Shown here: one piece after another, positions 1,590-21,153 of the stretch
How the letters are laid out: each line of letters starts with the position of its first letter
Position numbering within the stretch: the stretch's first letter is position 1
DNA from: Burkholderiaceae bacterium
Lineage (GTDB): Bacteria > Pseudomonadota > Gammaproteobacteria > Burkholderiales > Burkholderiaceae_B
Assembly: GCA_023653055.1 (NCBI GenBank)
Contig: JAMNXR010000017.1
Span: forward strand, 1 to 64,000
DNA: 64,000 nt
Direction of reading: 5' to 3'
Program-made: the position numbers and the translations under genes
Notes under the pieces: generated by a model
What the model was told of the DNA's origin: nothing
Database searches by the model: none
What the model saw: the letters and a program-made list of their open reading frames with translations, nothing else

Positions 1590-1590
1590 C

Positions 1591-2556: not shown

Positions 2557-2718
2557 TTTTATCCTCTTATTAGTTTTAGTACTACATCCATTTGTATTGA
2601 TAAACCGCCTCACGCACGCTGTCTACAAGGGTTATCCCCTTAATATTCCTGAGCGTGCGTATACAGTCACCGATCACCCATAAAATACCTGTTAAAACGA
2701 ACAATTTTTCTAGCGGAT

Positions 2719-3714: not shown

Positions 3715-3729
3715 CTCAATGACCTTTCC

Positions 3730-4554
3730 TTGATCACAATGACTCTCTCACACCGCACACTCAAAGATCAGATGTACGAAGTGGTCTTCAAAAGCGAATC
3801 GTCCGCCGGGCGATTATTCGACAAAATTCTCATTGGGATGATTGCGCTATCACTCGTGGTGGTGATTCTTGACAGCATCAGCGATATCGCCCAACGCTTT
3901 CACTCAATTTTATTCACGCTAGAGTGGTTTTTCACCCTCCTCTTTAGCTTGGAATACATCGCACGCCTGTACTGCGCAAAAAATCGTATCAAGTACGCGA
4001 CCAGTTTTTTTGGGGTGATCGATTTGATTGCCGTACTCCCCACCTATTTGGCTTTATTTTTCCCTGATCTACATGCCTTAATTGACATTCGTATCTTACG
4101 CATGATTCGAATCTTTCGTATTTTTAAACTCACGGCCTATGTCGAGGAATATGCACATTTGGGACACGCGCTGAGTGCCAGTCGCAAAAAAATCCTTGTT
4201 TTTCTATCCTTTGTCTTAATGATCGTACTGGTCATGGGCACACTCATGTATGTCGTTGAAGGTCCTGAAAATGGTTTTACAAGTATCCCCATTGCAACGT
4301 ATTGGGCGATCACCACCATGACCACCGTGGGCTTTGGTGATATCACGCCCCATACTGATCTGGGTAAGCTGATCGCCTCCGTCATGATGTTGATGGGCTG
4401 GGGAACACTGGCCGTTCCGACCGGAATCGTGACCTCAGAAATGTCACGCTCGCACGGCAGACGTCTGCTTGCTCAAGCAAGCTGTCATGAATGTGGGGCC
4501 GATCATTTAGAGAAACAGGACCTCTTCTGCCGGGACTGCGGCGCTAAGATTTAA
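3730..4554 (+). CDS. Voltage-gated potassium channel-like ion transporter with C-terminal zinc ribbon
   Basis: S4-like RILRMIRIFRIFK, selectivity filter TMTTVGFGD, C-terminal CHECGADHLEKQDLFCRDCGAKI. Confidence 0.88.
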   Translation: MITMTLSHRTLKDQMYEVVFKSESSAGRLFDKILIGMIALSLVVVILDSISDIAQRFHSILFTLEWFFTLLFSLEYIARLYCAKNRIKYATSFFGVIDLIAVLPTYLALFFPDLHALIDIRILRMIRIFRIFKLTAYVEEYAHLGHALSASRKKILVFLSFVLMIVLVMGTLMYVVEGPENGFTSIPIATYWAITTMTTVGFGDITPHTDLGKLIASVMMLMGWGTLAVPTGIVTSEMSRSHGRRLLAQASCHECGADHLEKQDLFCRDCGAKI

Positions 4555-4709
4555 ACAAAACTTAGCCTAGAACCTCACAATATCTCGCATTTAGGGGTTA
4601 TCGAGTAAAGATCACTCGATCTTCACATACAGATCATCCAAAATGGCGAAATTAGAATACAGAACAAAAAATATTCCTTCCCCCTATTCCATTGTTAATA
4701 GAAAACAAT

Positions 4710-6005
4710 ATGTCTAAGAAAATCAAAGCTCTGTTATTGATGTCCGTGGCTGCTGTCACGTCCCTCACAGGTTGTGTACAAACGGGATCGACAACGTTTC
4801 GAGATATGTCCTCGGCGTATCGTACAGTGTTAGAAGACTACGCGAACGACAATGTAGTACTCAATATTGTTCGTTCGTCTAAGATGATGCCGGTCAGCTT
4901 TTTGGATATGCCCTCAGTGGTCGGCACTGGAAGCGTGACTGCAGGTGCCGGTATCTCGGGAACGGTCATGAGCAATGCCGCCAACTCCATCCCAGGATTT
5001 TTCTCTGCAGCAGCAGGCTCTTCGTATGCGCCCAATGCGAGTTTATCTGTCAACAACGGATTTAACTTTACGCAATCCTCTTTGGATAATGCGCAGTTCA
5101 TGACGTCTTTCTTAAGCGACATTACTCCTCAGACCGTCGCTAGCCTGTCGAACAACCAAGTGGCTCCAAAATCGATTTTGTATTCCCTTGTGATCGACAC
5201 CATTGAATTGCGCGACAAAAACAACGTTATTGTCCTCAGCAGAACGAATAACCCGCTCTTACCTGAATATGAGGACTTTCAACGGGTGATGTACACCCTC
5301 ATCCAAGCGGGGCTTAACACCGAGCTTGTTCCACAAAAACAAATCGTCTCTGCCCTTATGACGGCTGAAGAGCTGAACCGTAATTTGATTGCGGCTGTGA
5401 CGGCGCAGACTCAACCAGGCACGATGGTTGAGACCATCAAAAATGGTGGCAAAACCATGTATCAATTGGTACGAGTCGTGCCCACCACACGCATGTGTTT
5501 AAATAGACAGGCTGAACAGGACACACTTGGTGGTATTTTTGGGGATTCTGCTTACTGTAATCAATCCGCGACTGGTGTCATACCCGCTAAGTCTATACCC
5601 GCTGCCACCCTTGAGGCGTTGAAGAAGTCAGGGCTACAAAAAGGCAGCATCCTAGTTGTCAAAATGCGCTCAACACGGAATGTGTTTGATTACCTTGGTT
5701 CCTTGGTCACGCTTCAAAATCAGGATCCACCTCAGCTCATTAAAGTCCTCAATTCAGATCAATTTGCCAAGAATCCTAGTATGCGTTACGACCCGAATGC
5801 TACGGCTTACCCACTTTTAATCGTAAACAAGGATCGATCCTCAGGTAGTACTCTGACTTCTGTGAATTATCAAGGTGCCACCTACAACGTACCCGCAGAT
5901 TCGGCCAGCTACACTCGGCAAGTACTAACCATAGTCTCACAGCTTCTTACACTCAACAAGGTACCAGGCTCCATTCCGAGCTCACCAGCAGTGCTGATCA
6001 AGTAA
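4710..6005 (+). CDS. Putative lipoprotein of unknown function
   Basis: Signal peptide with lipobox LTGC (MSKKIKALLLMSVAAVTSLTGC); no domain recognised. Confidence 0.65.
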   Translation: MSKKIKALLLMSVAAVTSLTGCVQTGSTTFRDMSSAYRTVLEDYANDNVVLNIVRSSKMMPVSFLDMPSVVGTGSVTAGAGISGTVMSNAANSIPGFFSAAAGSSYAPNASLSVNNGFNFTQSSLDNAQFMTSFLSDITPQTVASLSNNQVAPKSILYSLVIDTIELRDKNNVIVLSRTNNPLLPEYEDFQRVMYTLIQAGLNTELVPQKQIVSALMTAEELNRNLIAAVTAQTQPGTMVETIKNGGKTMYQLVRVVPTTRMCLNRQAEQDTLGGIFGDSAYCNQSATGVIPAKSIPAATLEALKKSGLQKGSILVVKMRSTRNVFDYLGSLVTLQNQDPPQLIKVLNSDQFAKNPSMRYDPNATAYPLLIVNKDRSSGSTLTSVNYQGATYNVPADSASYTRQVLTIVSQLLTLNKVPGSIPSSPAVLIK

Positions 6006-6022
6006 AGAAGTTTGTTACAGCT

Positions 6023-6054
6023 AAAGCCAAGCAACACGCTTGGCTTTTTTTTTG
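6023..6054 (+). terminator. Rho-independent terminator
   Basis: AAAGCCAAGC-AACAC-GCTTGGCTTT perfect 10-bp stem followed by a T-run, just downstream of 6005. Confidence 0.9.
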
Positions 6055-6078
6055 TATTTTTGCACCTCGCTCGACTGA

Positions 6079-7317
6079 TCATCCATGTGATAAAAAAGCT
6101 GAAACCAACAGCATGATGAGCATCGTTAATCCCAGGCCAGCACCCACGTATAAACCATAGCGCTGACCACCTGCCATAAAACCCAAAACTGTTTTTGCAA
6201 TCAAACTTGCCGCCAAAGCCAAGAGCACGCCCAGTTGCGCAGACTTTAAGTCTAAACCGCCCGTCACGTGAAGCTGCACAACACTGGTAATGGCAGCATG
6301 CAGCTCAGCGATCGCTACCAACCCAGTCAGTATCAACATACTGCCCTCTCCGAACAGCGAAGCTAACCAAGCCGATAGTAAAACCACTGCGGAAATGATG
6401 ACAGCAATGAGAATTGCTTGACTGAGCTTGAATGCTCGCGAGGGGAGTTCGCTTGAAGCAACGGGATGGCGAATGCCTATTCGAGCACACAGCAATGCAA
6501 CGCCCAACAGGGTGAGTGCCGCCGCTGCGATAGGTGCAACCAGGGACTTTAGTAATGCTGGTGAAATCAGGCCAAGCACCACCGTCACCAACAATAAAGA
6601 TGACAGGTTAGCCAACAGTGCTGCAGCGCTTGCTATTGCCGTCAACGCGGGGACTTCCCTAGCGCGCTTACCAAAACTGGCAACGGCCAAAGTTGAGGAT
6701 ACAAAACCTGCAAAAAAACCAGTAAGAGGAAAGCCAACACTTGGCCCCACTGCACGCTGGGCGATATGCCCCATCATACCGACAACCATGACCAGCACGA
6801 CAATTCGCCAGATCATATGCAAGTCGAGCACCCCCCATGGATCAAGAGGATGCTGAGGGAGAAGGGGTAACACGACAACCGCCGCGGCGGCAAGCATCAG
6901 GAGGTCCTGCAACTCCTGCTCACTGACCAATTCACGACTCAGGCGTTGTAGGTGTGGTTTCGCATACAACAAAATGGCAACCGTAACACCTAGCGCAGCA
7001 GACATGACGAGCTCTTTACGTGCTAGCCCCCCCAGCATAAAGCTCACCAGCATGGTGACCTCGCCAGTCAATCCGGGATCTGTATCCGCTGTTTTTAAAT
7101 ATCCTGCGACGGCCAGTGCACCCACTACAAGCAAGCCCGCGACGAAAGGGGCCACACCGAACCCCCAGGTCACCGAGCCCAACACAGCAATCAGGGCATG
7201 CGTACGTGTTCCTGCTTTTGCAGTGTCATGGCCATGTGCCCGCTCTCTCACCAAGCCGATGAGGAGCCCGACTCCCAAGGCTGTCAAGGTCCCTCTTACT
7301 GCTTCCTCTGACCACAT
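6079..7317 (-). CDS. MgtC/SapB family / DUF4010 integral membrane protein
   Basis: TALGVGLLIGLVRERAHG...AGTRTHALIAVLG MgtC-type N-terminus and a polytopic membrane C-terminal half. Confidence 0.85.
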   Translation of the reverse strand: MWSEEAVRGTLTALGVGLLIGLVRERAHGHDTAKAGTRTHALIAVLGSVTWGFGVAPFVAGLLVVGALAVAGYLKTADTDPGLTGEVTMLVSFMLGGLARKELVMSAALGVTVAILLYAKPHLQRLSRELVSEQELQDLLMLAAAAVVVLPLLPQHPLDPWGVLDLHMIWRIVVLVMVVGMMGHIAQRAVGPSVGFPLTGFFAGFVSSTLAVASFGKRAREVPALTAIASAAALLANLSSLLLVTVVLGLISPALLKSLVAPIAAAALTLLGVALLCARIGIRHPVASSELPSRAFKLSQAILIAVIISAVVLLSAWLASLFGEGSMLILTGLVAIAELHAAITSVVQLHVTGGLDLKSAQLGVLLALAASLIAKTVLGFMAGGQRYGLYVGAGLGLTMLIMLLVSAFLSHG

Positions 7318-7391
7318 GACGCGACTCCTAAAAATTACACTTTAGGGCTCGACTCAATCACTTGAGAGGCTTGGGTGGCTGAAAGACAGAC

Positions 7392-8288
7392 TTATTGCTG
7401 ATACTTAACGTAAAAGTTGTTTAACTCATCGAAGATCACCGATGAGATGTAGCCGGTAGCAGGCATCGCACGAACAGTGATTGTTTCACTGACTAAAAAA
7501 TTCTCAAATGCCCAACCCGGTGGGAGATTTAGCTGATCTTTTAGGTCTATCAAGCCTTCACGGGTGAGGTTCGTTGACACTTCATTGGTGAAGGAATACA
7601 TAATGTAAGAATCACCAACAGGCGACACCAGCCTATGCGCCAGTGTTCCGATGTTCCAAATATAATAAATTTGGCTGTTGTAATTGTAAGACGTGTAAGG
7701 TGAATCGATCAGACCGGCAATAATTTCCGTTTTCTTTTTAAATGCATCCCAAATACTAATACGAACTTCGCCATTTTTCGAAAAACGTAATTGTCCAATA
7801 TAAAAGAATTTGTCTCGGACAGTAGAGAGATTGACGTCCATGATGAACTGGTGAGACCCTCCCCGAAAGACCTTCAACCCAGTATCCGTGGCGAGCGTCT
7901 GGGCGGTAATCGAAGCAACCGTTAAATTGTAGTAATAATTTTCATCGCAAGAGGGTACAACCATATAGGTAGAGTAGGTCGTTACCACGTAGCTGAGTGT
8001 CCACCAATCAAAAGCGCCGGCAAAAATCGTACATACCAAACCCCTCGCATTCATGATCCCAGCAAGCGCGGCATCTGTTTGGCTTTTAAGAGAAAATTTT
8101 TTGTTGGGTTGACTTTCAGAAGCTGTCGAGGGCACGGCCGAGCTTTGAGCAGCAGCGGGCGATGTCAAAATGGAAGGCTGCGTTTTGGAAGGCTGCGTTT
8201 GTTGCCCCCAGGCAAACATCGCGCTGTGCATTAAAAAGAAAGCAAAGAGAAACTTTAACTTAAGCATAAGAGCGAAAGAGGAACTCAT
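7392..8288 (-). CDS. Secreted/exported hypothetical protein
   Basis: Hydrophobic signal-like N-terminus, then a Q/S/P-rich linker; no domain recognised. Start could be the internal Met near 8267. Confidence 0.5.
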   Translation of the reverse strand: MSSSFALMLKLKFLFAFFLMHSAMFAWGQQTQPSKTQPSILTSPAAAQSSAVPSTASESQPNKKFSLKSQTDAALAGIMNARGLVCTIFAGAFDWWTLSYVVTTYSTYMVVPSCDENYYYNLTVASITAQTLATDTGLKVFRGGSHQFIMDVNLSTVRDKFFYIGQLRFSKNGEVRISIWDAFKKKTEIIAGLIDSPYTSYNYNSQIYYIWNIGTLAHRLVSPVGDSYIMYSFTNEVSTNLTREGLIDLKDQLNLPPGWAFENFLVSETITVRAMPATGYISSVIFDELNNFYVKYQQ

Positions 8289-8549
8289 TAAGGTTAAAGA
8301 AAATTACAAGACATAAAAGTCTTGGATTTGTGAATATAAGATATAAGTGTTTATCATACTTCCTAAGTGTCACTCATCAAACACTATCAGATCAAATCCG
8401 CTTGTAAACCTTCTACAAGTTCTCTCAAATACTCACAGCCATCTTTTCGCGAACCAAATAAATCTAGCGATCTAGAGCTTACTCGGTTATAAGATGCAGA
8501 ATCTAGATTTTTCTGGCAGGCGCTTACACGCTCAACGCTCAACCTTGAC

Positions 8550-9341
8550 ATGAAAATACCTTTAAATTCATTTATTTTGGCTTTGAGCATTTGGTGCTCT
8601 GCTGCACTCTCCCAGACCTGTGACAAGCTTATTGTCACAGGTCCCCCTGCAGGCCCACCGTCTTCGTGGCTGCATAATGGGACGCTCATGGGTGCCTCTA
8701 TTGATTTCGTTAAAACTGTTGCGCTGGCTGCCGGAGCAAAATCGGTAGTCGTCAAACCATTTGACACTTGGGCTCAAGCCCTCAGAGCGACAGAAACAGG
8801 CGAAGTTGATCTCTTACTCTCTGCTGCGTATTCTAAAGAGCGGGCCCGATATATGACCTTTATTGAGCCACACTATTCCGGTCAGTTTGTGTACGTTATT
8901 GTATTAAACGGCAAGGAATTTCCTATCAGAGAGTATGCAGATCTCAAGGGCCGCAAAGGAATGGCAGCCAAAGGTGAGACGTATGGTAGTAGTAAATTTG
9001 GTGCCTTTGTTCAGTCAGAACTATCTCTTGAGCGCAGTGACTCTATCGAACATGCGTTTAAGGCGCTCTTAGCCGGAAAAGTTGATTATATTTTCTCGTA
9101 TCAAAATTCTGCGAATAGTGAAATTTTTAAACTAAAGATTGGTGAATCGGTCAGTGTCGCTAAGACCTATCCCTTTTATGCTGAAACGTTCATGGCAGTC
9201 TCGAAACGCTCAAAATGCTCTAGCCTGAACGCAGAGCTATCAAAACAAATCGCGATTGCGAAACAAGCCCATTTATACTATTCACTAAGCGAAAAATATC
9301 AGAGTATTTTTTTCGAGAATTTCGACTCTCCTCAGCGCTGA
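8550..9341 (+). CDS. Extracellular solute-binding protein family 3 (amino acid type)
   Basis: Signal peptide; LMGASIDFVKTVALAAGAKSVVVKPFDTWAQALRATETGEVDLLLSAAYSKERARYMTFIEPHYSGQFVYVI. Confidence 0.82.
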   Translation: MKIPLNSFILALSIWCSAALSQTCDKLIVTGPPAGPPSSWLHNGTLMGASIDFVKTVALAAGAKSVVVKPFDTWAQALRATETGEVDLLLSAAYSKERARYMTFIEPHYSGQFVYVIVLNGKEFPIREYADLKGRKGMAAKGETYGSSKFGAFVQSELSLERSDSIEHAFKALLAGKVDYIFSYQNSANSEIFKLKIGESVSVAKTYPFYAETFMAVSKRSKCSSLNAELSKQIAIAKQAHLYYSLSEKYQSIFFENFDSPQR

Positions 9342-9403
9342 TTTGTCCTGTTGATCTCCCTCAGCAACCTCATACAAATATTCCTATTTGATTTAAAAAC
9401 AAT

Positions 9404-10093
9404 TTGACAACGTACAGCCATACTTTTCGACCCAGTTCCTACACAACAGCACTTCTTCGCGTCATTAGCGAGCATTGTCCGGGGCTCCCAATGGACAGGG
9501 TTCTTGATGTGGGTGTAGGAAGCGGCATTTTTCTCTCAGAGCTTGGCCATCTTGGTGCCCAAGAGCTTTGGGGTGTGGACATCAACCCAGAAGCATTATC
9601 CCTCGCAGATAGCCTTCTTCACGTAGAGGTTGCCTCTACGCCTAGGTTTTTACTTGAAGGAGATATGTGGGAGCCACTGCCTCCAACACTTAACTTCAAT
9701 GTAATTGTCGCGAACTTACCTCACTTTCCAGCTAAAGTCATCCAATCCGATCGTCCTGAAACGTGGACGGGCGGTGATGGACGTCAAATCATGGATCGGT
9801 TTATTAACGCGCTACCTGAGCGACTCACGCATGATGGCGTTGCGTTTATTACACATCATGATTTGGTTGGATTTCAACATACCACTCAAACAATTCGTAA
9901 CGCTGGCCTGGTCTTAGACACCGTCGCAATCTGGACTGTTTTTGAGACACCTGAGCGCATGGATGCCGTCTCAGAGCAGACGCTTGCAGATGGACGAGAA
10001 TCCCTACGATACCTTGGTGGCTATGCCTTTGTGGATGCGCGTGTTTTAGCGATCAGGCCAGACCCCGACTTAAAGCAAATGTTAGCAACCTAA
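9404..10093 (+). CDS. Class I SAM-dependent methyltransferase
   Basis: VLDVGVGSGIFLSELG motif I, GVDINPEAL, NLPHFP (NPPY-like). TTG start. Confidence 0.8.
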   Translation: MTTYSHTFRPSSYTTALLRVISEHCPGLPMDRVLDVGVGSGIFLSELGHLGAQELWGVDINPEALSLADSLLHVEVASTPRFLLEGDMWEPLPPTLNFNVIVANLPHFPAKVIQSDRPETWTGGDGRQIMDRFINALPERLTHDGVAFITHHDLVGFQHTTQTIRNAGLVLDTVAIWTVFETPERMDAVSEQTLADGRESLRYLGGYAFVDARVLAIRPDPDLKQMLAT

Positions 10094-11736
10094 TGAAATT
10101 TTGGCTAAATTTTGCCCTTTTCATACTTTTCAGCATTGGCATTTATAGGGGCGCTACTGCCTCACCTGCACCTGCCACTGAATCTTCCCCCTATGCCCTC
10201 GCGGCCCAACAAAACATTCAAGAAGCTCTCCGCGTGCAGTGCGATAAAACATCTTCGGAGCTAGAAGAGATTCTATGTAACAAGCGCATACGCTTTGGTG
10301 TAAGAACAAACTATCGCTTGTTTGGCGAATACGATGGTCAGACTTTTAAAGGGTTTGAAATCGATCTGGCAAAACTATTAGCCGCTCGTCTAGGTGTTCA
10401 GGCTGAATTCGTTGCGTCTACTGTACCTAATCGAATAGAAAAACTGCTCGAACAAGAAATTGATGTCGTATTGGCCACAATGGCGCATACGCGCGCGCGC
10501 GATGCTGTTATTTACTTCATTCGGCCGCATTACTACGCCTCACCCACCGCGATTGTTGGCGCAAAAAATTTAAACATTCACTCGTGGGAGGATCTTAGAG
10601 GCAAAACGGTGTGTGTGCCTCTAGGTAATTTTTCAAATATTGCATTTACTCAGCATCAAGTCCGCATGCTCATCTACGATCGGCCGGATCGTCTGATCGA
10701 TGCGTTGAGGTTCGGCGCGTGTAGCCTCATTGCCCACGATCAGTCCTTGCTGAAAGCGAATGTGACGGGGCCGATGGCACCGAAAGCGTTATCCGAACGC
10801 TTCGCTGAGAAATTATCTTTTGATGATGTTCCTTGGGGGCTCGGCGTTCGCAAGGAAGCGCAGGAGAATCTCGGTGTCGTTCTTGCACTGTTGATGGCGG
10901 ATCTCCATCAGTCTGGAGCCTTGCAAAACTTGGCGCGCCAGCACCATCTGGATATTAGTTTTCTTGATCAACAGCGAACCAAGTGGTCCAACACACAATG
11001 CCTTCAAAATCAACGCGTGAACAACGCGTGTCTGTCGCCAGCATCAAATCTTGAAGATACGCCCACCGCTATTGCACCAGCCATAAGAGTGTTAGAAAAC
11101 AGCTTGAGTCGTTTTACCGACAAACCCCTAAAATTTCCAATGTTCACCGGATCAAGTGCCGCACAGTTATTTGTCTCGGGCTTATTCGTTTCGTTGATAC
11201 TGGTGTTCGGTTCAGTCATCGCAACCCTTGCTTTCGCCTTATTGTTTTATAGGCTGCTTCTGTCAAAGCTTTTACTTACGCGTATTGTTGGAAATATCAT
11301 TACTCAATTTTTTCAGAACAGCCCGATTATTCTCTTGCTGGTACTTGGCTATTTAGTGGTGACGTTCGTTACACCGTATGGATTCACTCTCGCGGTGTTG
11401 GTATCCGTTGCGGTGATTGGGTTAAATAATGGTGCAAATGGTGGTTCCGCTATGTACGAAACTGCCATGAGTTCTGACTACCCCTCCCCCGTGCTGACCG
11501 TCGTCAAGGATACGAGCGTTCAATTACGTGCCGCTGTCATCAATGCAGCAAAAGCTAGCCCAGTGGCTGCATTTATTGGTGCCCCCGAACTCTTAGCCGT
11601 ACTGACAGACATCACGTCTTTTACTGGTGAGCGAATAACGACTTATGTCATCCTATCTATTTTTTATTTATGCTTGGTTCAGCTTGTTGTGATCGCGAGT
11701 GGACGTCTGACGATGAGGCTGAAAAAAGATGCCTGA
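10093..11736 (+). CDS. Fused family-3 solute-binding domain plus ABC-permease-like membrane domain
   Basis: N-terminal half FGVRTNYRLFGEYDGQTFKGFEIDLAKLLAARLG...; C-terminal half polytopic with VAAFIGAPELLAVLTDITSFTGERITTYVILSIFYL resembling HisM/GlnP permease C-terminus. Confidence 0.78.
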   Translation: MKFWLNFALFILFSIGIYRGATASPAPATESSPYALAAQQNIQEALRVQCDKTSSELEEILCNKRIRFGVRTNYRLFGEYDGQTFKGFEIDLAKLLAARLGVQAEFVASTVPNRIEKLLEQEIDVVLATMAHTRARDAVIYFIRPHYYASPTAIVGAKNLNIHSWEDLRGKTVCVPLGNFSNIAFTQHQVRMLIYDRPDRLIDALRFGACSLIAHDQSLLKANVTGPMAPKALSERFAEKLSFDDVPWGLGVRKEAQENLGVVLALLMADLHQSGALQNLARQHHLDISFLDQQRTKWSNTQCLQNQRVNNACLSPASNLEDTPTAIAPAIRVLENSLSRFTDKPLKFPMFTGSSAAQLFVSGLFVSLILVFGSVIATLAFALLFYRLLLSKLLLTRIVGNIITQFFQNSPIILLLVLGYLVVTFVTPYGFTLAVLVSVAVIGLNNGANGGSAMYETAMSSDYPSPVLTVVKDTSVQLRAAVINAAKASPVAAFIGAPELLAVLTDITSFTGERITTYVILSIFYLCLVQLVVIASGRLTMRLKKDA

Positions 11737-12343
11737 TACCTCGATGAGTCTGATTGCAGGCTTTCTTTATGCCTTTCGTCTCAACATAGAGGTTGGCCTG
11801 TATGCACTGCTAGGTGGTGTACTGTTTGGCTTTCCGTTAACATTTATGCGGGTTCGCGTCGGCTGGACCAGAGTACTCGCTGAGGGATTGACTTCACTCC
11901 TTCGGGCGTTTCCAGTCTTTGTACTAATGTTTGTTTTGCTGGGCGTATTGTCGGATTCGTCACATTTGATACATCAGTATGTGGATAACATCCCAAAAAT
12001 TACCCTCATCTTGGCATTGAGTGCATACGCTACCGCCGTTGTTTCTGATGCTGCACAAGATTGTTGGCAGTATGTGCAGCAGTCCGATACAACGAAAGCA
12101 ATCCTCTTGATTCCCAACTTATTTCGAATTTTTACCATTTTAGTGATGGCCTCTAGCATCGGTGCCGCTATTGGCGTTCACGATGCAGTGTCTTACACTC
12201 TGTCAATATCTGAAGCAACGCCAAATGCGCTCAACCGAATCTGGCTTGTATTTCTTGCAACACTTTTCTTTGTTGCATTTTTTTCAATTATTCGCTTATC
12301 TTTATATCTGGTCGTTCAACGATTATCTAACCGGTTTCACTAA
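11729..12343 (+). CDS. Amino acid ABC permease-like membrane protein
   Basis: GLYALLGGVLFGFPLTFMRV..LTSLLRAFPVFVLMFVLLG resembles HisQ/GlnP N-terminus; overlaps the upstream gene by 8 bp. Confidence 0.68.
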   Translation: MPDTSMSLIAGFLYAFRLNIEVGLYALLGGVLFGFPLTFMRVRVGWTRVLAEGLTSLLRAFPVFVLMFVLLGVLSDSSHLIHQYVDNIPKITLILALSAYATAVVSDAAQDCWQYVQQSDTTKAILLIPNLFRIFTILVMASSIGAAIGVHDAVSYTLSISEATPNALNRIWLVFLATLFFVAFFSIIRLSLYLVVQRLSNRFH

Positions 12344-12375
12344 AATTTCCACCATAATTTTATTTTTGGAATGAA

Positions 12376-12591
12376 ATGTCTCCTCAACTCATTATCGCTT
12401 CATACATCCTATTATCGGTTTTGTTGGCCTATCTTGGCCGTAACACTCGCCTAAAATTCTGGGGAGTGCTGATGGCCTCCCTTATTTTCACTCCATTGAT
12501 CGTGGGCATCATATTATTATTTTTTGGCGCAACGAAATCTCAACTCAAAACAACTGACAAGGTTGCACCGTCAGAACCTCAAGAAAAATAG
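12376..12591 (+). CDS. Small two-TM hypothetical membrane protein
   Basis: 71 aa with two hydrophobic segments, co-directional with the permease genes and ending inside the shared hairpin. Confidence 0.45.
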   Translation: MSPQLIIASYILLSVLLAYLGRNTRLKFWGVLMASLIFTPLIVGIILLFFGATKSQLKTTDKVAPSEPQEK

Positions 12592-12622
12592 CAATCACTT
12601 TTACATAAGTGATTGCTATTTT
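12585..12622. terminator. Bidirectional hairpin terminator
   Basis: AAAATAGCAATCACTT-TTACAT-AAGTGATTGCTATTTT perfect inverted repeat with A/T flanks between convergent genes. Confidence 0.93.
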
Positions 12623-13683
12623 TTATCCGGGGCCGCGGTGGTGACTGGAGCGGGTGTCGCAGCGGCTTTTTGACTATCAGCCGCTGCTTTGGGATCTTTT
12701 GACGCTGGTGTTGTGGCTGGTGCTGGTGCTGTCGTTGCTGGTGCTGTCGTTGCTGATGCTGATGCTGGCGCTGCGCCGTCTACGGCATTCCCTAACACCA
12801 GAGGCAGCCCAGATGGACCAGAACCAAAAATAAGCGTTTTGGCATTTGTGGAACTAGCCAAAGTCTCAGTTGCCTGAATGCCGCGATATCTTAAATAGTT
12901 TTCCGTCATACCTGAATTCACCAGGTTCTGGAAATCTCGGATGCCTGTCGCCTCAATCACCTTGCGCTCAGCCTCCTGACGGGCGGCTTGAATCTTGTAC
13001 TTGTAGGCATCAGCATTCTCAGATTCGACAACCTTATTATCAATGGCCGCCTGAACATTTGCCGGAAGAGTGATGGAGTTCAGCTGTACTGCACTCACCC
13101 TAATCAGCCGCACATTAGATAAACCCGGTGGCGAGATTTGTTGAATCAACAGACTGTCTGATGTGATGGCAATATCATTTGCAACTACAGAGATATCACC
13201 GGTGTAGGCGCTTTTCGAGCTTACCAGAGCAACTTTTTCACGCGTCACCTTGGTAACCAGAGGAACGATCACTTTTTCAAGATAATCCATACCGACGTAC
13301 TTATGAAGCAACGGTAATGTATTTATGTTGACCTCATATTGGAAAGTCACTGAGACATTTGTTTTGAGCAAGTCTGAAGTCAGGAGTTCAAGATTGAGCT
13401 CTTTCAACTTAATCTGAGCATCATACTGATACGCGGTGTTCCACGGAAAAATAATGTGAGCGCCCTCTCGAAGCACCAAATTGAGGTCGACGCCTCCACT
13501 CAAGGGACGATACAGGACTCCAATTTTTCCAACCGGCACCAGAACGAACATATGTGGCCACAAGACAACGAATGATGAAAAGACGAGTACGACCAATAAA
13601 ATAATCGTTAACAATTTCTCATTCGCCCAGCCAAGCATAGCGGCCCACTTACGAATGAAATAACCGGGTTTTACAGTTTGCAT
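12616..13683 (-). CDS. SPFH/Band-7 (prohibitin/stomatin-like) membrane-anchored protein with Ala/Thr/Pro-rich tail
   Basis: Single N-terminal TM; VPVGKIGVLYRPLSGGVDLNLVLREGAHIIFPW; AAIDNKVVESENADAYKYKIQAARQEAERKVIEATG. Confidence 0.85.
   Translation of the reverse strand: MQTVKPGYFIRKWAAMLGWANEKLLTIILLVVLVFSSFVVLWPHMFVLVPVGKIGVLYRPLSGGVDLNLVLREGAHIIFPWNTAYQYDAQIKLKELNLELLTSDLLKTNVSVTFQYEVNINTLPLLHKYVGMDYLEKVIVPLVTKVTREKVALVSSKSAYTGDISVVANDIAITSDSLLIQQISPPGLSNVRLIRVSAVQLNSITLPANVQAAIDNKVVESENADAYKYKIQAARQEAERKVIEATGIRDFQNLVNSGMTENYLRYRGIQATETLASSTNAKTLIFGSGPSGLPLVLGNAVDGAAPASASATTAPATTAPAPATTPASKDPKAAADSQKAAATPAPVTTAAPDKK
12722..12751. repeat. Perfect 15-bp tandem duplication in low-complexity tail of the SPFH gene
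   Basis: GCTGGTGCTGTCGTT repeated twice in tandem. Confidence 0.9.
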
Positions 13684-13690
13684 TTTCTTC

Positions 13691-15355
13691 TCAACTTGTC
13701 ACCAACTGACCATTCACCATCTGCAATAAGTAATCAGCAGACTCATAATAATGATCGTCGTGTGTAATCGCAATAACTGTCTTACCCATCGCGCGCAACA
13801 TCGGAATAATCTTTGCATAAAATAAGTGTCGGAACTCAGGATCTTGATCCGCCGCCCACTCATCGAGAATAATCACTTGCCGCTTTTCAAGCAGCGCAAC
13901 AATCAATGCAAGACGTTTTTTCTGACCTGTTGAAAACCTGAGATTAGAAAAAATACCATCTGTAACAGACACTTTCTTTTCCATTTGAAACAACTCAATC
14001 AAATGATCGATCTCAGTAGGCGTGACATCATTCAGTCCATACAGTTTTTTAAATAAATGAAAGTCTGTAAATACAACGGAAAATAAGTCCCGATAGTCGC
14101 TCGTTGCCGGCAAAGCAATGGGCTCTTCGTTGACGTATATTTGACCGGAAGTCGGCTGAGACAAACCCACTAACATCCTGATCAGTGTAGTCTTGCCAGA
14201 ACCGTTATTACCCCGAACAAAGTAAACGTTGCCGGCTTTAAACTCGTAATTGATGGGGCCTAAACTAAACGGTTGACTGCCTTTCGGAGGGCTTCCTGCC
14301 GTACGAGGTGCTCCGTTTCCATTTGCATACTGATAGGTAATATTTTCGATTCGGATGGACTCAAGCGTAGAAAACACTTCACGTGCACCAAAGCCCTCCT
14401 GGGGCTCTTTGGATAAAATCTTTTCCTCTAACCCAATCAGTTCACGCGCGGCGGCATTGGACTGGGACAGACTCGGTATACTTTGAATGATGCCATTCAG
14501 CGAAGCAGTCAAGAATAAAGCGGTTGTGGTCGCCTGCATCACGCTAGCAGAAAAGTCGGTCGAAAGAATGGGTACAACAAAAATCATTAACCCAACAACT
14601 GCATACATCATGATCTGCAGATAGTTGAAGAAATTTGCTATAAAAATCAAAAGTTTAGACTTCAACTCACTCGTGCCGCGTGCCTCTTTGACCATATCAC
14701 GTGAAATCTCATATGCACGATCAGAATGCATTTTTATTTCTTTATAGCCATTCAAAAAGTCCGAAAACATTTCATTGAGGGCACTTTCGCGTCGTGCGAC
14801 CACCTCGAGCTCATTGGTCACATTTCGGACGGCATGCACACCCGCTAAAACAAGCAGCACACTTGTCATACCGACAAGAAAAAATGCCGTGAGCGAAATA
14901 GTCGCCATGTAAAGCGTCAAAAAAATCACTGTGGCAACGGACTGACAACCGGACACCAAAAATGTGATGGACTGTGAGACCGTTTGAGTATCTCGCGCAA
15001 GTATCTGCAAGATTTCCGCGCGTCCGATGCTATCGACTTTTGCGAGGTCTGACTTGAAAATCTCATTCATGATGCGCATCTTGAATCGATGCACCAAACC
15101 TTGGGTGCTCTTGATACTTTCCCGATTTGCGATATTGGTGATCACAAGAAATGTGGTGAGCAACAAGGCGAAGAGAAAAAACTGTACAGTGACACTATCA
15201 CCATTGCTAACATCCCCAGCCGCCTTATTAATCAAGGCGATCAACCCCATGTTGGTTATACCAACAAAGAAAGAAATGCCAAGGACACGTTTAACATCCT
15301 TGGGACTTTCACGACTGATGAGCTGAAATAAATCAGATTGGGAGTTAATGCGCAT
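13691..15355 (-). CDS. Cyclic-peptide-export ABC transporter (PvdE/SyrD-like), fused TMD-NBD
   Basis: TM N-terminal domain; Walker A VRGNNGSGKTTLIRML, signature RFSTGQKKRLALI, Walker B VIILDEWAADQDPEFRHLFY, switch His AITHDD. Confidence 0.88.
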   Translation of the reverse strand: MRINSQSDLFQLISRESPKDVKRVLGISFFVGITNMGLIALINKAAGDVSNGDSVTVQFFLFALLLTTFLVITNIANRESIKSTQGLVHRFKMRIMNEIFKSDLAKVDSIGRAEILQILARDTQTVSQSITFLVSGCQSVATVIFLTLYMATISLTAFFLVGMTSVLLVLAGVHAVRNVTNELEVVARRESALNEMFSDFLNGYKEIKMHSDRAYEISRDMVKEARGTSELKSKLLIFIANFFNYLQIMMYAVVGLMIFVVPILSTDFSASVMQATTTALFLTASLNGIIQSIPSLSQSNAAARELIGLEEKILSKEPQEGFGAREVFSTLESIRIENITYQYANGNGAPRTAGSPPKGSQPFSLGPINYEFKAGNVYFVRGNNGSGKTTLIRMLVGLSQPTSGQIYVNEEPIALPATSDYRDLFSVVFTDFHLFKKLYGLNDVTPTEIDHLIELFQMEKKVSVTDGIFSNLRFSTGQKKRLALIVALLEKRQVIILDEWAADQDPEFRHLFYAKIIPMLRAMGKTVIAITHDDHYYESADYLLQMVNGQLVTS

Positions 15356-15379
15356 TATTTATACAGAACTCAAAGTCGA

Positions 15380-16312
15380 TCAAGCCGGAGCCGCTTGTTT
15401 TTTGGAAAATATTTTTTTACTTTTTTCAAACTGTTCTTGAAAATAAAGATTCATTTTAGAGCTATCAAAGCTTGCCATCGTGCCTGAGTTTTCGAAGTGT
15501 TTCACGAAAACATATCCCATCGCATAGGTGGTGGCAAAAGCAAAGGTGGGCTGAACGAGTTGATCGACATAAGGCACAGCCTTTAGGGCCATCGCACCCA
15601 CAATTTGTGCCGCGCCTGCAGTTAAGGATCCGCCCACCAGACCACTTGCATAGGCAAGGGCAGCCTCTTTTTTAAACGGAACGTTATATATTTGGCAAAG
15701 ATCGTAAATCATTTTGACCTGAATACCAGAAACCAGCGCAATATCTACAAACGGCACGGGTACAAAGCCAGCCGCCACGGACCACTGAGACCAACTTTTT
15801 ACAACCTTCATTCCACGCATTTCGCGATCAGACGTCACACGCATACGCACCAACTCTTTCTGTGGCTCATTGCATAACTCTGCTTCAAACACCTCATCAG
15901 CGCGCCGCTTGGGCGCAGTGTGCTCACTGGCCTGACTGGTTTCTTGGGAAGTACGTTTCATCTCAGCATCCTTCGACGCATTGTCAACAACAACCTGTGC
16001 TAAAGCATCGAAGCTTGCAGTGTCCGATGCGATCACTTGGTTCACTTGCTTGGCCGTCGCTTTCTTGGTCACCCGTTTCTGTGCAGGCCTTTTCTCCGGC
16101 GGAATCACCTGACTCACCGGCTTTTTAACATCGGAGGTCTTCTTAGCGATCACTTTTTTAGCTACAGTTTTTTTTACTGTTTTTGTCAGGGCTTTTTTTT
16201 GTGCCGTTGTGGTCGCGACTCTGTTTGTCACCACTGACTTTCTAGGTGCACTGAGGGAAGTAATCTCGTCGAGCGGATTAGCCATAATTGTCTTTCTTGC
16301 GCGCGTCGCCAT
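15380..16312 (-). CDS. DUF697-type membrane protein with Lys/Ala-rich N-terminal extension
   Basis: KALTKTVKKTVAKKVIAKKTSDVKKP basic tail; C-terminal WSVAAGFVPVPFVDIALVSGIQVKMIYDLCQIYNV...VFVKHFENSGT. Confidence 0.75.
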   Translation of the reverse strand: MATRARKTIMANPLDEITSLSAPRKSVVTNRVATTTAQKKALTKTVKKTVAKKVIAKKTSDVKKPVSQVIPPEKRPAQKRVTKKATAKQVNQVIASDTASFDALAQVVVDNASKDAEMKRTSQETSQASEHTAPKRRADEVFEAELCNEPQKELVRMRVTSDREMRGMKVVKSWSQWSVAAGFVPVPFVDIALVSGIQVKMIYDLCQIYNVPFKKEAALAYASGLVGGSLTAGAAQIVGAMALKAVPYVDQLVQPTFAFATTYAMGYVFVKHFENSGTMASFDSSKMNLYFQEQFEKSKKIFSKKQAAPA

Positions 16313-16323
16313 AGTCTTGTGCC

Positions 16324-17091
16324 TCAGTGGTGGGACGAAGTCAAAATAATCACCTCATCCGCCAAATCTCTATAATTTTGAGCCGCGGTCGAGCTGGGGT
16401 TATAAGTCAAAATGCTTTGCTGAAATGAAGGAGCCTCTGCAAGCCTAACATTTTCATAAATATGGCTTTTTAACAGTTTGTCGCCAAAACGCTCTAAAAG
16501 TGTGGCCAACACATCCTTTGCATGACGCGTTCTTAAATCTACACGTGACGCAACGAGGCCCAGTACATTCAAATCCGGATTCAAGACGTCTCTGACCTGT
16601 TCAACGGTACGAAACATTTGTGCAACGCCTGACAAGCTCATCACGTGCGTGGTCAAAGGGATAAGTATGTCTTTTGAAGCTGCCAATGCATTTAAAGTGA
16701 TTAAACCTAAGGTGGGCGGTGTGTCGATCAAAACATAGTCAAAGGATTTAGCATTTAATTTAGCTAAGCGACGCTTAAGTATTGTTTCGACTGAGAGCTC
16801 GCCAGCAAGCGCCTTATCCAGGTTCGAAAGCTCGCGTGACCCGGCCAATAGCGAGACACCCTCAATATTAGTCTGAACAATGAGCTTTTGAAGGTCTTCG
16901 CGCGTTGTCATTGCCTCCCAGGCGCCGGGGATCGTTGCACCGCTCGAGAGCCAGCTCGTCGCATTGCCCTGTGAGTCTAAATCAATCACTAGCACGGAAA
17001 AATCACGCGCTGCAAGGCATGCGGCCAAATTTACAACCGTTGTTGTCTTGGCGCAGCCCCCTTTTTGGTTGGCAACAGCGATCACATTCAT
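16324..17091 (-). CDS. ParA/Soj-family ATPase
   Basis: MNVIAVANQKGGCAKTTTVVNLAACLA deviant Walker A, VIDLDSQGNAT, VLIDTPPTLGLITLNAL. No ParB partner nearby. Confidence 0.93.
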   Translation of the reverse strand: MNVIAVANQKGGCAKTTTVVNLAACLAARDFSVLVIDLDSQGNATSWLSSGATIPGAWEAMTTREDLQKLIVQTNIEGVSLLAGSRELSNLDKALAGELSVETILKRRLAKLNAKSFDYVLIDTPPTLGLITLNALAASKDILIPLTTHVMSLSGVAQMFRTVEQVRDVLNPDLNVLGLVASRVDLRTRHAKDVLATLLERFGDKLLKSHIYENVRLAEAPSFQQSILTYNPSSTAAQNYRDLADEVIILTSSHH

Positions 17092-17148
17092 TCGGTGAAA
17101 AACCTTTTATTCAGGGAGCATCATTCGACCCTTTATCACAAAAAACTA

Positions 17149-17175
17149 CGGATCATGTGTCTACCACATGATCCG
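17149..17175 (-). terminator. Probable terminator hairpin for the 17199-17690 gene
   Basis: CGGATCATGTG-TCTAC-CACATGATCCG 11-bp perfect stem; on the minus strand followed by TAGTTTTTTGTG. Confidence 0.7.
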
Positions 17176-17198
17176 CAACACGTGATTCAGACGGATGT

Positions 17199-17690
17199 TT
17201 AGCTCTTAGCTGCTTGGGTAAATTCTTTTTTCAAATCATCTTGAACGGATACGACGCTAAAGTTAGCGAATGTGCCACCGTTTTCAAAATGACGTACAAA
17301 TACCTTGCCAATTGAATAGGTTGCAGCAGAGCCAAATGCAGCTAGCGATACCGCACCAACAATTGTTCCATAGCCTGGCAACAACTTTGCGCTGGTGCCG
17401 ACGATCATCTGAGTCGCACCGGCTGGGACAAGCATGCCAAGCAGAACGGAAATGACACCGCGAACAGCTTGTTTGGAGATTTTTTGGTCGTACAAGTCTG
17501 CCAAATCAACAATCATGTTAGCTTGGATCGCACCTAAGGCTGCCATATCTAACACTGGGATTGGAATCAGCGCAGCACCCACGCTCCATTTTGCTGAGGA
17601 AGCAATCGTCTCTCCGGCGGCATCAAGGCGCTTGATCTTTCGCAGTTCGTCTGCACTCACTTCTACTACGTCAATCGTTGTTACCGTCAT
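17199..17690 (-). CDS. DUF697-type protein (paralog of 15380-16312 C-terminus)
   Basis: AKWSVGAALIPIPVLDMAALGAIQANMIVDLADLYDQKI...VFVRHFENGGTFANFS; same architecture as the 15380 gene without the basic tail. Confidence 0.75.
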   Translation of the reverse strand: MTVTTIDVVEVSADELRKIKRLDAAGETIASSAKWSVGAALIPIPVLDMAALGAIQANMIVDLADLYDQKISKQAVRGVISVLLGMLVPAGATQMIVGTSAKLLPGYGTIVGAVSLAAFGSAATYSIGKVFVRHFENGGTFANFSVVSVQDDLKKEFTQAAKS

Positions 17691-17924
17691 GAAAAGCTCC
17701 GTCAAAGAAGGAAAATAAGTGTTTGTAATTTAACAAATCAGCATATTTGAAAGCTGAATAGTTAGTGTACGCCATACAAGTTACACAAATTTTACAAAAT
17801 GAACAACCATTGAATGCTAATCGAGATAATAGGTCCCATACTAGCAAATCCTCACAAAACGAGAGAGTTGCGCATGGTGATAATCGCCATGCCTTCTAAA
17901 CAGTCAATCGAATACTGCGTCAGG

Positions 17925-19547
17925 CTAAATCGTGACATCCGCACGCCCAAATAATCTGAGCGCCTTGATGCCCATTTGTTGACAAGCCTCGACGAGTTGC
18001 CTCGCATTCGTGGCGGGCACAGTATCTTCGCTGGGATCAATACTTGTCACGAATTGCAGCCAAGGCTCTGCGCCCATTGCATACACATAAACCTCAGTGC
18101 AACCAAGACTCTTGACAACCTTTAACCCTTTTTCACAATCCGAACCATTCAGTCGTCTGGTTTGATCCTTTTTGCGATCAATGGCAACTGGCAATAAAGG
18201 CCCGTACGTCCAACTAAAAGGCGCACCGGCACACTCCATCCCAATAAACAGAATATCAACCCGTCCTACTACTTGCCTAAGCAAATCATACAAAACAGGG
18301 TCTAGGTTATTACTGTCTGCAGCAAACAGCATCGTCGTCTGGCCAGCTCGCACACACCACGCCGCTTTGGAGCGCACGTCCAAATCGCCGTGCTCGCCCA
18401 AAAACGGCAATGCGGTCATGCTCAATTCGCCAGACGCAATCGAGCCTAAGGAATCCAATTCGATCACGTTTTTAAAGCCAATTGACTGCAACATTAGCTT
18501 GAGGGAAGGGTCAGCGATACTGCCGCCCCCCGTCGGTACCACGACAGTACCCACTCGAAAGCGCAGGGCCAACAAGGTCTCGATCAATACATGGTCAGCA
18601 TGATTGTGCGTGAGGACCACGTAATCGATGTGCTCTGGTAAGTCACTTAAAACATAACGTTCAACTTCTGACTGCCCTTCGTAAGCCACGATAGGGTCGA
18701 TCAACACGTTTGTGCCATCCGGCGCTTCAACCAGCACACACGCATGACCGAAATAGCGCCAGCGTGTCTGACCGGTTTTTGCGCTGGGTGTTAACGCAGT
18801 CACAGGGGCTTCAGTCAAAAAGTCGGAGAAAAGGTCTGTTTGCTCGCTGCCGACTTTAAGGGCGGCAAGCACTTGCGATCGGGGCTGAGGATAATGGCGA
18901 AGCCGAGCCAGATAGTCATAAATCTCAGCGTCAAAAGGCTCTTGAAGCTCAAAAATATTTGGGCCAGGCATTTTCGGTGTACTGAATGCAAACGGCCGTA
19001 AGTCACCCTGAGCGCGATAAATCACCGAGCTTTGCACGTTCCGGTTATAGGCGGGGCTCCGATAAAGGAGGGGTTCGTTGACCCGAAGGTCAGGATGGCC
19101 GCCAATCGTATATGTTAATTCGACATAGCCTCTAACGGGCTCAGGCAACTTTTCATAATGAGGTTCAATACTAAAACCGTCGGCGTTTTTGGAGATCATA
19201 CGAAATGATTCACGCAACGCATCGCCAAATTCAATTTGCTTGGCCTGCTCGGCCTTAGTGCTTTCAATCAATGCTTTGACCGCCCCCACCTCACTGGTAG
19301 GTAAGTCCACAAATGGTCCCCCACGAAGATTGGGGTTTTGACAGGCGGCAACGTGGGCTTCTGGCGCTGACACAAACGACTCAAGGACAGCCAAATGTCT
19401 ATATTTAGCGTTGAGGCAGGACGTTGCAGGAGAAACCAGGTGGGCCCAAGCATGCCAACGTTCAACTAAAGGCTCAATAACAACGTCTGTTTTGAGTGTG
19501 ACAAGCGGGTCAAGCATATTCATCCCTGAAGGTAGATTAGTGGGCAT
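17925..19547 (-). CDS. MBL-fold protein with large N-terminal domain (CmlA-like diiron beta-hydroxylase candidate)
   Basis: C-terminal MBL domain [25 protein letters not shown] and [18 protein letters not shown]; about 250-residue N-terminal domain; adjacent to an MbtH-like gene. Confidence 0.72.
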
Positions 19548-19776
19548 TCGCTGCCATTGCCTTGCGCAGGCTCAGAGGACGCATATCCGTCCAGTGTTGA
19601 TCAATATATGCACTCACCTCGACCTTGCTACCTGTAAAACCGACTTCACGCCAACCTGCAGGCGTTTCTTTTTGTTCGGGCCAGATTGAGTATTGCTCTT
19701 CTTCATTGATGATGACTTTAAACAAGTCGCCATCAATTGTGTAGGCATTCACTCGGGCTTTCGTATTTTCAGTCAT
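19537..19776 (-). CDS. MbtH-like protein (NRPS adenylation-domain partner)
   Basis: [54 protein letters not shown] matches the MbtH signature (SxWP...PxGW...C/ayI...WTDMRPxSLR). Confidence 0.92.
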
Positions 19777-19913
19777 GACAGCACTCTCTAGAAATAGTAA
19801 TTTGGTTTGATAGCTGGACCGTGCAGGGTTTGGAGACGCAACTCGATTAAGTCGATTATGACAAAAGATCTTTAAAATCAGCTCAAAAAGGCTCACAATT
19901 CCTTGCAATGCGT

Positions 19914-20327
19914 CTATTTTGGATCGCAGGCGTAATTTTTTAAGTTTTGCTCAACGCTGCGAGGATTGATCGGCTGCCATTGGCTATAAACCTTTTCGGT
20001 CTTGACGATTTGACCGCCCGCCATACGCTCATCGTGAAAGTCAATCGTGTAGGTTCTCACACGATTGTCGCGACAATTGTACTGAGCACGGATCACCACC
20101 GAATGAAACATCAAACCTTGCTGATTTCGCATTTTCTGCTTGTAGTCCAGCATTTCTGCGACATTCACAAAAATATCGGTTCTTAAAATTTCACCGCGCT
20201 CGGTATATGTCACTAACGCGGCATCCTCATGCAAGCTTAACCACTGAGCCTGTGCTACGGAGGCAAACAAGACTGCGGACAATACAACACCGCGCACGAT
20301 ACGCTTGGACCAGCAAGAGATATTCAT
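19914..20327 (-). CDS. Exported small protein, surface-adhesin protein E-like
   Basis: Signal peptide ...[52 protein letters not shown]. Confidence 0.5.
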
Positions 20328-20532
20328 ATGGCACCTACCCTTTTAGGCGTTGGTTCTAATTTATATATCGATTTAAAGTCTTTTTAATGGTGCCTCTGGC
20401 ATTAACCATAATAATAAAGCGGCTTTAATGAAAATTAAGAAACATTTCATTCCAAAATTGCAGTGTTTGTTTTAAAGATCCATATTAATTAGTATGCTCA
20501 AAACAACTGAATCACCCACGGGGACAACGCAC

Positions 20533-21153
20533 ATGAGCGACAACAAACAAAACGAAAACATTGACCATCAGCGCTTCAAACGTCTGCACACCAATGAAAT
20601 GACAGCCGATCAAAAACACTATTTCAACGGCTTGATGAATGGCAGAGTCTCTGGCACAGGGAGCAAGGGTGTTGTTCAAGGTGCAACCAGCCTGGGCGCT
20701 CCCTTTAATGTGTTGCTGCGTAGCCCCGTCCTTGCTGAACGCTTGAGAAATGTTGGCGAGTACCTGCGTTTTGACAGCAGCATTCCAAAACGCCTGAATG
20801 AGCTGGCGATCTTAGTGACGGCACGTGCTTGGACCGCTCAATATGAGTGGTACGCCCATCTTCGACTCGCCCTCAAGGAGGGACTGAATCCAGCGCTCGC
20901 GGCCGAGCTTGCGCAAGGCAAACGTCCCTCAAACATGCAAGCCGACGAACAAGCCATTTACAACTTTTGTGATGAACTGCATAAAACGCACCAAGTCAGT
21001 GATGCACACTACAAAGCCGTCATCGATCTGTTTGGCGAGCAAGGCGCGGTCGATCTGATGGTGGTGTGTGGATATTACGTGATGGTATCAATGGTGCTCA
21101 ATGTCAACCGCACCCCGTTACCGGAAGATGCTGTGCCGATTCCAGAGCTCTGA
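20533..21153 (+). CDS. Carboxymuconolactone decarboxylase-family protein
   Basis: GAPFNVLLRSPVLAERLRNVGEYLRFDSSIPKRLNELAILVTARAWTAQYEWYAH. Upstream in-frame start at 20494 is also possible. Confidence 0.85.
   Translation: MSDNKQNENIDHQRFKRLHTNEMTADQKHYFNGLMNGRVSGTGSKGVVQGATSLGAPFNVLLRSPVLAERLRNVGEYLRFDSSIPKRLNELAILVTARAWTAQYEWYAHLRLALKEGLNPALAAELAQGKRPSNMQADEQAIYNFCDELHKTHQVSDAHYKAVIDLFGEQGAVDLMVVCGYYVMVSMVLNVNRTPLPEDAVPIPEL

Follow-up and report, generated by a model that had tools for sequence, protein, structure and literature searches.

What is achieved by a compact run of genes that brings together an SPFH-domain protein, a PvdE/YojI-like ATP-binding cassette (ABC) exporter, a ParA-type ATPase and two DUF697 proteins on one strand, and does it constitute a single system with the solute-binding protein (SBP) and permease genes found beside it on the other? 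The question is raised by a 64,000-nucleotide stretch (hereinafter the window) of contig JAMNXR010000017.1 (C29; 70.8 kb) in the assembly of a Burkholderiaceae bacterium (GCA_023653055.1), whose genome comprises 2.84 Mb in 30 contigs. An initial annotation had interpreted the region 7392–17705 as one membrane-microdomain assembly, positioned by ParA, that exports or senses a small peptide-like molecule. An open reading frame (ORF) check of the window recovered the ORFs concerned at their expected coordinates, and Pfam and NCBIfam upheld the domain assignments, namely the SBPs, the methyltransferase, the permeases, the SPFH protein, the exporter, the two DUF697 proteins and ParA. Based on comparative sequence analysis, we posit that the minus-strand genes at 12616–17705 encode an export and spatial-organization module of a nonribosomal peptide or polyketide pathway, a reading to which we assign a probability of about 0.7.

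The minus-strand genes are not grouped by chance, because the SPFH relatives and close DUF697 relatives recovered in two family-wide searches share the same six of the 121 family genomes, at adjacent coordinates. In the window, the set reads from 17705 down to 12616 as DUF697, ParA, DUF697 with a basic extension, exporter and SPFH, and is tightly packed, with intergenic gaps of 107, 11, 24 and 7 bases. Nonribosomal peptide synthetase (NRPS) or polyketide synthase (PKS) genes adjoin the module in five of these six genomes, and condensation domains are present in all six as compared to 48 of the 121 overall (p 0.003). Additional DUF697 matches in the genomes designated G045, G113 and G037 and on contig C8 of G086 proved to be other DUF697 proteins without the module.

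A genome of the same genus (G108) has a left flank syntenic with that of the window (homologs of 465–6005 at 64–90%), and there the module is followed by an MbtH gene and a very large NRPS gene, and then by homologs of the PhyH, Cupin_8, CmlA-type and further genes of the window. The MbtH protein of the window shows 71% identity to the one adjoining this NRPS. No synthase gene was found at the module region of the window; given that the syntenic locus of G108 retains the NRPS, the window locus is thus a version of the cluster without its synthase. The β-hydroxylase and MbtH genes upstream of the module are hallmarks of NRPS pathways, and the natural unit exceeds the region initially delineated, taking in the lipoprotein gene at 4692–6005, the CmlA-type β-hydroxylase and MbtH, and probably the PhyH/Cupin_8 oxygenases as well (Table 1). 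Elsewhere in the same genome, contig C3 codes for an NRPS of ~6000 aa with a C-terminal thioesterase, and C26 for a PKS–NRPS with a probable continuation on C14; its ketosynthase on C26 shares 86% identity with the one from the PKS that adjoins the module in G086. This PKS–NRPS cluster is seemingly split by the assembly at the end of G000:C26 and the start of G000:C14 (L075, L076). The family-wide SPFH search detected the SPFH module only once in the window genome.

A profile search with the SPFH protein yielded 80 named loci with flanks of up to 10 kb, to which 16 other genomes were added by an even draw over the phylum, and removal of near-identical copies left 56 loci, each with 12 kb or more of surrounding sequence, outside the Bacteroidota-type SPFH clade. 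By BLAST with set thresholds, 53 of these 56 non-redundant loci have DUF697, 41 a PvdE/YojI-like exporter and 34 NRPS/PKS genes; G086 would be the thirty-fifth in the last category, its PKS lying just past the end of the fetched sequence. All three components are absent from twenty control stretches of 20 kb, taken from other parts of the same contigs in six genomes (for NRPS/PKS, Fisher p 5e-7), as also from 26 loci whose SPFH genes are of the ordinary kind and come almost entirely from Bacteroidota. In the SPFH tree, the association extends over Azospirillaceae, Thalassospiraceae, Stappiaceae/Roseobacteraceae, Alcaligenaceae, a myxobacterium, Balneolota and an actinobacterial metagenome-assembled genome, with freshwater Burkholderiales/Alcaligenaceae being the nearest named relatives of the module in the window. 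Two cultured species, Zwartia vadi (L102) and Polynucleobacter yangtzensis (L101), possess the module. By gene content, the predicted PvdE/YojI-type exporter, SPFH and DUF697 proteins constitute a recurrent module adjoining NRPS/PKS genes, to which some lineages add a predicted ParA plus a DUF697 protein whose N-terminus bears a conserved basic peptide. The notion of peptide-like export by a complex with SPFH, ParA and DUF697 is supported by the adjacency to NRPS/PKS genes in many unrelated lineages and by the cargo-positioning anatomy described below, while the link to a biosynthetic cluster had been missed. In the Stappiaceae/Roseobacteraceae loci (L109, L110, L112, L114, L117, L122 and L123), large PKS/NRPS genes are followed by SPFH and Peripla_BP_6 genes with DUF697 genes nearby, and L109, L110 and L122 also possess a different ParA lineage.

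Several observations weigh against this interpretation. Because five of the six proteins behind the search profile adjoin NRPS/PKS genes, the matches of this profile lean to that clade, and 22 of the 56 loci are without NRPS/PKS genes within reach. The ParA of the module occurs in a minority of loci (8/56 by strict count); therefore, positioning cannot be the core function and ParA is an added layer. As the synthases are not at the window locus, the tie to a particular product is indirect. Finally, C39-peptidase-type ABC transporters replace NRPS/PKS at L191, L195 and L200 (confirmed by Pfam for L191 and L195). The SPFH and DUF697 genes of these three loci adjoin those of C39-type transporters and of Peripla_BP_6 proteins, one of which is fused to OmpA. 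Such loci without NRPS/PKS suggest that the shared theme could be peptide export more broadly, and the module may also serve the export of ribosomal peptides.

This occurrence of the SPFH/DUF697 set with differing product classes (NRPS, PKS and C39-type peptide exporters) is likewise expected under the main rival explanation, self-protection, wherein the SPFH and DUF697 proteins stabilize or repair the inner membrane of the producer against its own membrane-active product and the ABC transporter is a resistance pump. SPFH proteins are often tied to membrane stress, and in one genome (G082) the module adjoins an adenylation–ketoreductase (A-KR) module of a type characteristic of depsipeptides, a class that includes ionophores. 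However, self-protection leaves both the pairing of ParA with a basic tail and the recurrent SPFH-adjacent periplasmic binding proteins unexplained, and we regard it as unlikely, if still the most serious competitor of the export and spatial-organization reading.

Table 1. Features of the module and its surroundings, in window coordinates, with supporting profile matches or other evidence.
Feature	Position	Strand	Evidence or remark
Exported lipoprotein, no known fold; likely start 4710, lipobox LTGC	4692–6005	+	no Pfam match
Exported all-beta protein, no known family	7392–8288	-	no Pfam/NCBIfam match
Periplasmic binding protein SBP_bac_3, accessory arm	8550–9341	+	PF00497 1e-12
Class I methyltransferase, HemK/PrmC-like	9404–10093	+	PF13649 2.6e-7; NF011529 5.6e-19, below its cut-off
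SBP_bac_3 fused to amino-acid-type permease domain, degenerate EAA loop	10093–11736	+	PF00497 9.2e-21
Second permease subunit	11729–12343	+	BPD_transp_1 8.9e-4 and TIGR01726 3.2e-5, both below cut-off
SPFH/Band_7 protein, N-terminal transmembrane segment, prohibitin/HflC-like	12616–13683	-	PF01145 1.5e-19
PvdE/YojI-like cyclic-peptide export ABC transporter	13691–15355	-	TIGR01194 295.3 bits, cut-off 286.2
DUF697 with long Lys/Ala-rich basic N-terminal extension, candidate ParA partner	15380–16312	-	PF05128 8.6e-11
Codons of conserved N-terminal peptide MATRARKTIMANPLDE, motif RKTxxxNPLDxI	16265–16312	-	kept 3′ of ParA
ParA-type ATPase, deviant Walker A KGGxxKT	16324–17091	-	AAA_31 2.3e-48
Terminator-like hairpin between first DUF697 gene and parA	17145–17179	-	15-pair stem and T tail
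Stand-alone DUF697, first gene of module	17199–17705	-	PF05128 6.6e-15
CmlA-type diiron beta-hydroxylase, NRPS tailoring enzyme	17925–19547	-	PF18456 2.5e-72, with metallo-beta-lactamase domain
MbtH-like NRPS accessory protein; true start probably near 19776	19537–19908	-	PF03621 5.5e-17
PhyH and Cupin_8 oxygenases	30284–32001	+	G108 homologs (85% and 79%) directly downstream of NRPS

The spatial component of the favored reading comes from the ParA/DUF697 pair. The ParA of the window carries the signature KGGCAKTT and has the Thermus Soj protein (1wcv) as its closest solved relative (7.6e-46). The long DUF697 protein encoded after such Soj-like ParAs opens with MA[TS]xxRKTxxxNPLDxI or a close variant in the window, G086, G108, L099–L103 and L106 (nine fused versions), and in the window the region preceding its DUF697 domain contains 37 K+R against 19 D+E residues. 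At L107, the DUF697 protein is devoid of the tail, which is found as PKKTIKFNPLDGI on a separate small ORF directly 3′ of ParA, and L105 has neither ParA nor tail. Two further ParA lineages, from Stappiaceae and Balneolales, likewise have a DUF697 gene immediately after them, its product bearing a basic N-terminus of a different sequence. ParA/MinD partner proteins are known to engage their ATPase via a positively charged N-terminus (PMC10241942), the first 20 residues being sufficient in McdB, with lysine 7 as a critical position (PMC12204374). By analogy, the pair has an anatomy resembling that of a cargo-positioning ATPase and its partner, and the conserved basic N-terminus of the latter is probably disordered. 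McdAB and other ParA/MinD cargo-positioning systems thus share with the module a ParA-type ATPase and a partner with a short conserved basic N-terminus (PMC10241942, PMC12204374), but here the partner is a DUF697 protein encoded together with an exporter and an SPFH protein, and the putative cargo is a membrane export site.

Since this ParA is closest to chromosomal and plasmid Soj proteins, the pair might alternatively be viewed as a remnant of a DNA-partition system or mobile element with an accidental neighborhood. We hold this to be very improbable: at least eight loci keep ParA immediately ahead of DUF697 and the exporter, the partner tail is conserved, and no ParB-like gene or tRNA lies beside ParA among the neighbors scanned, parS sites not having been searched. 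The 20-residue tail peptide had zero matches when searched in plasmids. Each of the six loci folded has a long stem (z −2.6 to −4.5) in the gap separating parA from the first DUF697 gene, the stem sequence being mostly different from one locus to the next; this hairpin likely gives partial termination, such that the first DUF697 protein would be made in excess. An Rfam scan of 4000–21000 returned no RNA-element matches.

The exporter, for its part, combines its transmembrane (TM) and ATPase domains on one chain (ABC_tran 9.3e-24; ABC_membrane weak). Prohibitin-2 is the best solved relative of the SPFH profile (1.7e-20), with HflC also among the best, and the protein matches no flotillin model in Pfam or NCBIfam that would point to the flotillin-specific C-terminal region. 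The HflK/HflC and prohibitin cages have the same combination of an SPFH domain with an N-terminal TM segment, but the module has no FtsH gene and its SPFH gene adjoins an ABC exporter. Independent support for an association between SPFH proteins and exporters in an NRPS pathway comes from balhimycin biosynthesis, where a paraslipin, an SPFH protein, was found near the exporter Tba by proximity labeling, leading the authors to suggest a functional membrane microdomain (PMC11960670). The likeness lies in the physical proximity of an SPFH protein to the ABC exporter of an NRPS pathway (PMC11960670); the difference is that here the SPFH protein is encoded within the module, with DUF697 and ParA.

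The pyoverdine pathway of Pseudomonas provides another close comparison. To our knowledge, pvd clusters are without SPFH, DUF697 or ParA genes. This pathway resembles the module in that its ABC exporter, of the PvdE family, is linked to NRPS genes, and the organized assembly of its NRPS enzymes, the ‘siderosome’, is under study (PMC6206403, PMC11172790). The PvdE-like exporter, MbtH, β-hydroxylase and SBPs of the window would indeed fit a hydroxylated peptide siderophore with periplasmic maturation. Nevertheless, we consider a pyoverdine-type siderophore system improbable: no siderophore receptor, and specifically neither a TonB-dependent receptor nor an iron-uptake gene, was found among the proteins scanned around the window locus (2719–24417), and the hydroxylase is of the CmlA type.

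Under the export and spatial-organization reading, the peptide would be made by synthases encoded on other contigs, with the β-hydroxylase and MbtH being supplied from this locus, and the exporter would move the finished peptide over the inner membrane to the periplasm. The SPFH protein, which is related to prohibitin/HflC and has a single N-terminal TM helix, would form a ring or cage corralling the exporter, the DUF697 proteins would act as adaptors at the inner membrane, and nucleoid-bound ParA, engaged by the basic DUF697 tail, would space or position the export site. Periplasmic binding proteins, here possibly 8550–9341 and the SBP–permease fusion, might act on or sense the exported compound. 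Gene content, linkage, the N-terminal motif and the hairpin are seen in the sequences themselves, and the positioning and microdomain functions are inferred. More tentatively, and at clearly shorter than even odds, the module might represent an ‘export-site’ machine, widespread yet undescribed, that serves secondary metabolites, with an SPFH cage around the exporter, DUF697 adaptors, in some lineages a ParA on the nucleoid that positions the machine by way of a dedicated N-terminal peptide, and a dedicated periplasmic binding protein receiving or sensing the product. Our literature searches, in which subscription journals were little covered, returned no paper that links SPFH/Band 7 proteins genetically with NRPS clusters or gives DUF697 such a role, and the novelty, in our view, lies in the set of membrane-organizing partners, previously undescribed for NRPS/PKS export. 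The spatial coupling of giant NRPS/PKS assembly lines to their exporters is an open question that such a module would make directly testable. Moreover, DUF697 gains a concrete context as a candidate ParA partner and exporter companion, and the combination of this SPFH clade with DUF697 offers a genome-mining handle pointing to biosynthetic clusters even where the synthases are encoded elsewhere in the genome.

The second part of the question concerns the plus-strand arm. The initial annotation had grouped an exported hypothetical protein with the plus-strand genes and placed a small TM protein after the permease; the former (7392–8288) is actually on the minus strand, and no such separate TM protein of at least 80 aa is encoded at the latter position. 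With its SBP_bac_3 domain and HEQRo-type permease features, the arm is reminiscent of the polar-amino-acid ABC importers with fused SBP–permease subunits, but differs from them in being without an ATPase gene and in its degenerate EAA loop. Homologs of the fusion are found in G086, G111, G604, G630 and G749, and the sampled SBP loci of other family genomes match only its SBP part; an alignment shows a degenerate EAA loop in the fused permease of each of the six homologs. No ABC ATPase gene was seen in the arm of either the window or G086, nor among the neighbors matched by exporter queries in G604, G630 and G749. The arm may therefore not be a working importer.

The methyltransferase–fusion–permease set occurs without SPFH, DUF697, the rest of the module or NRPS in three Burkholderiales genomes (G604, G630 and G749), and with the module in two, the window and G086, which are the only carriers among the 13 loci of the beta-proteobacterial SPFH clade. 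The arm is therefore separable, and the gene-neighborhood comparison, in finding that the two arms seldom co-occur, goes much of the way toward overturning the earlier idea of one obligate system. It is about an even call whether the arm is a chance neighbor of the export module, an operon for uptake or sensing with no relation to it. Against mere chance stands the linkage in G086, where the SBP (45% identical to 8550–9341), methyltransferase, SBP–permease and permease genes likewise adjoin the module, despite protein identities of 39–61%, differing flanks and a cassette inverted with respect to the window. Other periplasmic binding proteins also recur beside the SPFH gene: a Peripla_BP_6 gene lies directly downstream of it in about 20 other loci, SBP_bac_3 proteins are encoded at L188 and L177, and ABC_sub_bind and NMT1_3 proteins in the Thalassospira group. 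Members of this SPFH clade are therefore repeatedly accompanied by a periplasmic binding protein, and the direct adjacency of other binding-protein families to SPFH in other lineages softens the case against a link of the arm to the module. As a unit in its own right, the methyltransferase–SBP/permease–permease operon (window 10093–12343; L182, L183 and L184) has no visible ATPase and stands alone in three Burkholderiales genomes.

Two exported proteins of no known family are recurrent neighbors of the module: the lipoprotein at 4692–6005 has homologs at nine module loci, and the all-beta protein at 7392–8288 at those of G086, G108, L102, L103, L105 and L107. Their structure models are of medium confidence, that of the former from AlphaFold having a pLDDT of 65.5 and two long strands and that of the latter a pLDDT of 71, and neither model had a significant Foldseek match in the PDB (best E 0.099 and 0.14, respectively). 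Weak matches of 7392–8288 to LolA were noted, and we claim no such identity. Likewise, PADLOC matches suggestive of a defense system are weak and partial, being explained by shared ATPase or methyltransferase folds, and were rejected. An MgtC/DUF4010 membrane protein encoded at 6079–7317 on the minus strand sits within the module region; its homolog in G108 lies beyond the NRPS, on the far side, implying that the locus has been rearranged.

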